From Hyphomicrobiales bacterium (GTDB taxonomy: Bacteria > Pseudomonadota > Alphaproteobacteria > Rhizobiales > WTKA01): 35,992 bases of DNA. A model generated the notes under the pieces. The model saw only the letters and a list, made by a program, of their open reading frames with translations. It did not search any database and was not told where the DNA came from. The stretch covers positions 7,415 to 43,406 of the forward strand of contig WTKA01000060.1 of assembly GCA_011524605.1 (NCBI GenBank), written 5' to 3'. Both the position numbers and the translations under genes were made by a program. This document shows, one piece after another, positions 7,944 to 35,992 of the stretch (within the stretch, counting starts at the first letter, position 1; each line of letters starts with the position of its first letter).

Positions 7944-8924
7944 TCAGCCCCATAAAAGGGGCGATGGCAACTGCATTTGCGTACCATGATATTGAACAGG
8001 ATTTGATATATCTTGCGCCAATAATAAGGGGCCATCAAGATCAATAATATTTGCTAAAGAGGCAATAACATAAGCAGGTGCCATAGCTAGGGAGCTAGAA
8101 AGCATGCAGCCAGCCATAATTTGAAAATCTAATTCTTTTGCTTTTTTCACCATTTCCAAACCTTGTGTTAAGCCCCCTGCTTTATCGAGCTTAATATTTA
8201 CCGCTTGAAAATAAGGCCTGAGCCTTTCCAAATCTGCATTTGTGTGCAAGCTTTCATCAGCACAAATAGGAATAGGCGATTGTTGTGGCAAATGATTTTC
8301 TTGCCCAGCAGGCAATGGCTGCTCAATTAAAGCGACTTTTGCCCTCATACAAGCATCCATCATTGTTTCATAAAGCTTGCCTGTCCAACCTTCATTTGCA
8401 TCGACAATTAGCTGAGCATCAGGCCTAGCTTCATATATAGCTTGAAGCCGTTCAACATCTAACCCATCCTCAAGCCCCAACTTGACTTTGAGTAAATCAG
8501 CAAATTCATTCTCTTTTGCGCTATTTGCCATATTTTCTGGCGTGTCTATACTTAACGTAAAAGCTGTTTGTAAAAATTGCGGCGGCTTTAATTGTAATAT
8601 TTCCCAAATCGTTTGTTTTTTCTTCTTACACATAAGATCCCAAAAGGCGCAATCCACCGCATTGCGGGCAGCTCCTGCTGGCAAAATATCTTGGATTTGT
8701 TCTGGTGTTCCAGCTAATTGTAATTTTGATTTCACAGACATTATATCTGCCATTACACTCTTAACCGTTTCACCATATCTTGCATATGGGCGACATTCTC
8801 CAACCCCTATAAGGCCTTGATCTTCAAGCCTGACCTGCACAACATCAACAGCAGATAATGCGCTGCGGGATATTTGAAAAACACCCTTAATTTCATAAGT
8901 TTGATGAAGAATCTCAATATTCAT
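7944..8924 (-). CDS. dgcA: Enolase-superfamily epimerase/racemase, DgcA-like (dipeptide epimerase family)
   Basis: LKVKLG, IVDANEGW, ICADES, VNIKLDKAGGLT catalytic motifs; C-terminal DLDGPLLLA..PLLWG as in DgcA proteins. Substrate not proven. Confidence 0.75.
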   Translation of the reverse strand: MNIEILHQTYEIKGVFQISRSALSAVDVVQVRLEDQGLIGVGECRPYARYGETVKSVMADIMSVKSKLQLAGTPEQIQDILPAGAARNAVDCAFWDLMCKKKKQTIWEILQLKPPQFLQTAFTLSIDTPENMANSAKENEFADLLKVKLGLEDGLDVERLQAIYEARPDAQLIVDANEGWTGKLYETMMDACMRAKVALIEQPLPAGQENHLPQQSPIPICADESLHTNADLERLRPYFQAVNIKLDKAGGLTQGLEMVKKAKELDFQIMAGCMLSSSLAMAPAYVIASLANIIDLDGPLLLAQDISNPVQYHGTQMQLPSPLLWG

Positions 8925-8926
8925 AA

Positions 8927-9213
8927 TCTAGGCTCAGGACATGATGGTTTATCCCATTCTGCACCAATAGATTTACACTATGAACAGGAGAAAAAATGTA
9001 GTTACTACTGCTAATTTCAAGCTTTTTTGACGTATTCATTGTGTAAATATAAGGCACCCATTAGGTTTTAATTAAAAGTGGGTTTAAGTTAAAAGCATCA
9101 TCTGTCAAAAATAAGTTTCAACAATAACAATACTATTCTTCTACTTTATTTTTATCCACTTAATAGTTTTAATTCAAACAATATTGAACAAAATAATCAC
9201 GTACTGAGCCCAG
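8927..9213 (+). repeat. Copy A of a MITE-like or structured noncoding repeat with degraded terminal repeats
   Basis: Aligns along its length to the reverse complement of 35721-35992, including a 28-nt perfect match TAATTTCAAGCTTTTTTGACGTATTCAT (9012-9039). Ends TCTAGGCTCAGGAC and ACTGAGCCCAG. Confidence 0.85.
8971..9048. repeat. Internal inverted repeat of element copy A
   Basis: ATTTACACTATGAA (8971-8984) against TTCATTGTGTAAAT (9035-9048): 13/14 complementary. Confidence 0.7.
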
Positions 9214-35720: not shown

Positions 35721-35992
35721 TCTAGGCTCAGAGCCTATTAATTTTGTTCAATTCTGTTTGAATTAAAAGTATTAGGTGGATGAAAATAAAGTAAAAGAAT
35801 AATTTTTCTATTGTTGAAACTTTATTTTTGACAAATGATGCTTTTAACTCAAACCCAAAGGGCACCATATATTTACACCATGAATACGTCAAAAAAGCTT
35901 GAAATTACCAGTAGTTCCAGCGCTTTATTTCCTTTTCACAGTGTAAATCTATTAGTGCAGAATGGACTAAGCTAATAGGCTCTGAGCCTAGG
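35721..35992 (-). repeat. Copy B of the MITE-like or structured noncoding repeat, with intact 20-bp terminal inverted repeats
   Basis: TCTAGGCTCAGAGCCTATTA (35721-35740) and TAATAGGCTCTGAGCCTAGG (35973-35992), 19/20 inverted. Body aligns in reverse complement to 8927-9213. No ORF inside. Confidence 0.88.

Follow-up and report, generated by a model that had tools for sequence, protein, structure and literature searches.

A putative IS427-type MITE and its foldback relatives in several genera of Rhizobiales

The element that lies within positions 35721-35992 of the window, by which we mean the whole 35,992-nucleotide stretch of Hyphomicrobiales DNA analysed here, is almost certainly a non-autonomous transposon (MITE) of the IS5 family and, by its predicted group, of IS427 type. 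The initial annotation had read this interval as a MITE-like noncoding element, and that reading is supported by three features: dispersed copies, the lack of a gene, and ends that are those of IS5/IS427-type insertion sequences (ISs). The explanation that we propose with good confidence is that of an IS427-type MITE which would be moved in trans and would represent an old lineage with its own conserved foldback interior. Two things were missed by the initial annotation, namely the conserved foldback that involves the whole element and the existence of relatives in other genera.

Boundaries, copies and target of the element

The inverted repeat described initially is present: TCTAGGCTCAGAGCCTATTA at 35721-35740 is matched by TAATAGGCTCTGAGCCTAGG at 35973-35992, its reverse complement at 19 of 20 positions, and the terminal inverted repeat of the interval prolongs to 29 nucleotides at 86% identity. 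The description of an AT-rich interval devoid of ORFs is likewise correct, with a G+C content of 32% over 272 bases as against 38% in the window, and with no ORF of at least 80 amino acids listed within 35721-35992. The palindrome reported inside each terminal repeat, TAGGCTC-A-GAGCCTA, is real in both ends of the interval but represents a minority state among the copies, since GAGCCTA is kept in few of 45 end matches and GGACCTA is found in most; the perfect palindrome is a local variant of few copies. The CTAG at both borders, for which a 4-bp target duplication or a part of the repeat had been considered, is neither. The transposon begins with GGCTCAG, the element proper occupies 35725-35988 (264 bp), and the flanking TA sits in a YTAR target. 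From the comparison of 31 full copies, the left TA of the duplication is placed at 35723-35724, with the Y at 35722, and the right TA at 35989-35990, with the R at 35991. Because the window is the final 36 kb of contig C151 and the element runs up to the contig end at 35992, its right flank consists of two bases only. Read on the plus strand, the left terminal inverted repeat GGCTCAGAGCCTATTAATTTTGTTC (35725-35749) carries a consensus end identical to that of IS5/IS427-type ISs, and the right one (35959-35988), which includes the AGAA half of a junction stem, ends in CTCTGAGCC.

The host genome (2.3 Mb in 164 contigs) yields 45 BLAST matches to the element, and searches with the consensus ends give 115 and 84 end matches, two sets that may partly overlap. 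A census by a profile built from 26 aligned full copies and run on the 426 kb around end matches detects the element at no fewer than 99 loci, which are spread over 65 contigs and include 33 full-length copies; this is a lower bound, given that the search was targeted to these stretches. The pairwise identity of the host copies ranges from 77 to 100%, with a mean of 87%. The many copies with matching ends that are expected of a mobile element thus exist in the host, and homology extends well beyond a single orthologous locus. A palindrome that arose by chance or is peculiar to this locus, involving no mobile element, would have the position at the contig end in its favour and nothing more; it can practically be dismissed in view of the 99 loci on 65 contigs and of the identical ends borne by ISs of other genera. 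The ends of the host copies can be told apart by their sub-terminal sequence, which is either CCTATTAATTT (type A) or C(G/T)TGATTATTT (type B), and the left/right combinations A/A, B/B and A/B are seen, with no B/A among the classified copies.

Among 47 end-bounded elements, 32 measure 260-289 bp, and one-hairpin and ends-only forms are few. The deletion forms comprise three of 172-181 bp that lack the first of two large hairpins (hairpin I, see below) and ten of 34-69 bp that hold barely more than both ends. The former (C18:794, C69:26565 and C148:43646) have kept both ends and hairpin II, and look like clean hairpin deletions. For as many as 39 of the 99 copies, the nearest contig end is no more than 100 bp away, so that the element appears to be one of the chief reasons why the assembly is fragmented. 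Two of the loci fall in the window: the one at 35722-35991, and a second full-length copy, more divergent (78% identical), at 8928-9213 on the minus strand. The gene at 7944-8924 (minus strand), which by eye we take to be an enolase-superfamily epimerase, has its ATG only a few bases past the right end of this second copy, and its immediate upstream region consists wholly of the element.

Insertion takes place into YTAR with duplication of the TA: in the 31 full copies, a pyrimidine precedes the TA and a purine follows the right TA without exception, and the left TA itself is found in 30. None of 63 strong matches in the host, and none of 25 in other genomes, is contained in an ORF, the ORFs having been called by a simple script and not by a gene finder. 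The genes around the host copies are convergent in 13 cases, divergent in 11 and codirectional in 14. Several copies are located exactly on the stop codon of a neighbour (C36:20860, C24:5492 and C155:4308 in the host, L189, L191 and L088 in other genomes, at offsets of about -3 to -5), where a TAG is restored by the target TA together with the element's first G, so that such insertions would be harmless. The relatives sampled belong to the same order and none to the host's own family; in a sister species of another host, the end of the orthologous gene is found without the element, but conservation does not extend to the other flank. Downstream of the ortholog of the gene beside L189, a further genome (locus L218) carries a different direct tandem repeat, CTAGGGCGCGCCTCATTGAATTGTCTTGACAATTCAATGC..., which occurs twice in a row and has an internal palindrome.

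The parent insertion sequences

The initial annotation had suggested a search for an autonomous IS with the same ends, and such ISs exist in other genomes. When GTDB contigs were scanned once for the 24-base end of the consensus, exact matches were obtained on 16 contigs from Rhizobium, Bradyrhizobium, Camelimonas and others. The first ORF of a transposase, whole or in part, adjoins the end in 14 of these 16 stretches, and seven also encode the second ORF; as the IS is not readable as one frame, its first ORF was taken as the query. In Pfam, the two ORFs of the Rhizobium tropici copy correspond to DUF4096 and DDE_Tnp_1, and they also match the two halves of the NCBI IS5-family model NF033580. 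Longer ISs for which both ends were found measure 819-854 bp and are bounded by the same ends as the element.

Among known systems, the closest to the element are the ISs of the IS5/IS427 group, such as IS1248 and ISPaes1 of Paracoccus. The element shares with this group the 2-bp TA duplication in YTAR, the host group and its ends, of which 24 bases are identical to those of the ISs detected here in Rhizobium and others. The putative group name IS427 is based on the two-ORF layout, the length and the TA target. The IS427-group ISs of Paracoccus are 832-865 bp long and generate a 2-bp duplication in all but one case (PMC3281130), and the IS711/IS6501 elements of Brucella use the same kind of target as our element, IS711 duplicating the TA in YTAR (PMC2266754). 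In contrast to the IS5/IS427 ISs, which are about 820-865 bp long and encode a transposase, the element has 264 bp and none, and apart from the ends its interior does not descend from the IS. Indeed, BLAST detects nothing in common between IS and element beyond the terminal 25-40 bases or so, and for this reason the element does not appear to be a recent deletion derivative of the IS.

An OrfA of IS427 type gave no match in the host genome when the DUF4096 model and the Rhizobium OrfA were used as queries, and neither transposase ORF was credibly matched in the host stretches around end matches. The assembly is 96% complete and broken by repeats, and a transposase copy may therefore have been lost from it. 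This negative result concerns the present activity of the element rather than its assignment to the group. In the mechanism that we propose, an IS427-type transposase acting in trans would bind the ends of the element and would move it into new YTAR sites, with duplication of the TA.

A foldback shared between genera

The copy at the end of the window folds at -94.5 kcal/mol, compared with -50 in shuffled sequences (z = -9.3 on either strand). Between the terminal repeats, the plus strand shows hairpin I, an imperfect palindrome of about 99 nucleotides (35756-35854) apparent from the fold and from covariation across genera; the mini-hairpin CC-AAA-GG, which the alignments place between both large hairpins (35855-35861) and at the position of which many copies of the same genome have a 12-17 bp insertion; and hairpin II, an imperfect palindrome of about 97 nucleotides (35862-35958), apparent from the fold and from an inverse self-match in most copies. 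By eye, hairpin II could plausibly be an inverted copy of hairpin I; the comparison, however, scores no better than shuffles (z from -0.9 to 1.4), and this origin is not supported by it. It may still apply in view of one cross-match, between hairpin I of L192 and the hairpin II model, on the opposite strand (E = 1.4e-5).

Relatives of the element were searched for by a pattern that requires two exact 10-base ends at a distance of 236-266 bp. Of 397 genomes from the order, 8 contain it, the host included, and these belong to five genera. The seven other genomes contain relatives of 264-278 bp that have the same architecture and interiors hardly alike. A Cohaesibacter MAG (L074) harbours a 267-bp relative in dozens of copies, with 67% identity along the whole length. 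A class-wide sample of 385 genomes contains the pattern in the host genome only and nowhere outside the order, the reversed-pattern control giving zero among the matches listed; since the pattern is strict, this absence outside the order is weak evidence. The pattern has no match in viral contigs, and plasmid and phage collections gave no matches either. A literature search of limited coverage returned no paper describing the element.

All the relatives examined share one clover-leaf plan, which consists of a closing stem (the ends plus TTCTG/CAGAA), hairpin I, a CCC-loop-GGG mini-hairpin, the prediction of which is absent from some sequences, and hairpin II. When 16 elements that represent five groups are aligned, with hairpin II partly covered because group g33 aligns poorly there, 93.3% of the cells form the 73 consensus pairs, and double changes that retain pairing are observed at 49 of them. 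In helix 2, which belongs to hairpin I, double compensatory changes affect 18 of 20 pairs across genera. The covariation amounts to 0.461, as against 0.166 in shuffles that ignore relatedness (none of 500 reaches 0.461), the structure being derived from the same alignment, and it falls to 0.08-0.11 (maximum 0.108) when the partners are slid by 1-3 columns. It is very probable that the foldback architecture is conserved across genera. When interiors without their ends are compared with a profile of the other groups, the E values are 3e-18 to 2e-10 for the Cohaesibacter group, 4e-18 for g113 and 2e-9 for the host's own group, and the same test is weak for g57 (0.008) and g33 (0.008 in the right register). 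Common descent of the interiors appears well supported, by sequence comparison, for three of the five groups; for g57 and g33, it would rest on the architecture and the junction letters.

What maintains the fold

Is the fold maintained by selection, and if so at which step? That it is selected, through transposition or otherwise, is a tentative proposal, to which we grant somewhat less than an even chance. The interiors of the host copies diverge by 7.1% at paired and 10.3% at unpaired positions, and those of the Cohaesibacter MAG by 4.0% at both, so landed copies seem to decay almost freely. The pairs being kept between groups while landed copies are little constrained, a requirement at the moment of movement fits better than a service rendered at each site.

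Such a service is what would be expected of a dispersed structured RNA or regulatory repeat comparable to ERIC, REP/BIME or Correia, the transcribed hairpins of which would act on neighbouring mRNAs and would be kept by the host. The conserved fold with its compensatory changes and the intergenic siting, often a few bases from gene ends, agree with such a function, as does an excess of G-T over A-C mismatches when the hairpins are read from their own end inwards (68 to 24, in contexts that are not independent). Under a stricter per-site test, however, this excess vanishes in the host (19 versus 19) and amounts to 34 versus 23 overall (p = 0.18). Furthermore, landed copies vary almost equally at paired and unpaired positions, their orientation to genes is mixed, and no Rfam family matches the element up to E = 1; we regard this function as improbable.

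An unselected fold deserves more weight, although it too is rather unlikely. The element would then be a MITE in which template-switching correction during replication (quasi-palindrome conversion) copies one arm onto the other and thereby generates double changes. Compensatory changes would arise in this way without selection, and both the mismatches without strand bias in the host copies and the weak constraint on landed copies are in keeping with it. The process leaves unexplained why two hairpins of about 100 nucleotides, the mini-hairpin and the junction letters TTCTG / AAACCC / GGGC / CAGAA are common to several genera, and why full-length copies far outnumber one-hairpin forms; moreover, the arms remain imperfect.

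The alternative that we favour, with reservations that slightly outweigh our confidence, is an old MITE lineage of the order kept by selection on a four-way foldback which would be needed either by IS427-type transposition or by an RNA of the element. In this old lineage with its own interior, the closing stem, the two hairpins of about 100 nucleotides and the mini-hairpin would have been kept by compensating changes. If the fold is selected, it would most likely be through transposition: the foldback DNA could bring the two termini close to each other, and the loss of a hairpin would make a copy spread less.

The element has in common with bacterial MITEs that it is short, gene-less, multi-copy and intergenic, with terminal inverted repeats and a foldback. 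MITEs are mostly limited to one species or genus and are often plain deletion derivatives; unlike them, this element has relatives in several genera, in which the fold is common and the letters have strongly diverged. The Bru-RS and RIME repeats of the same order are about 100 bp long and are not known to have IS ends. Compared by their description, Bru-RS1/Bru-RS2 and the RIMEs of rhizobia resemble the element as palindromic intergenic repeats, and Bru-RS have been reported as possible hot spots for the insertion of IS711 (PMC2266754).

In conclusion, the element seems to account for much of the fragmented state of the host assembly, and it would allow one MITE lineage with the ends of a well-known IS group to be traced across several genera within an order, in which the architecture has stayed intact while the letters have changed. 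Bacterial MITEs are usually regarded as the short-lived debris of one species. If the folded shape is indeed under selection, this would be a non-coding mobile element conserved by its structure and not by its sequence, and it offers a testable case for the structure-dependent mobility of a gene-less element.
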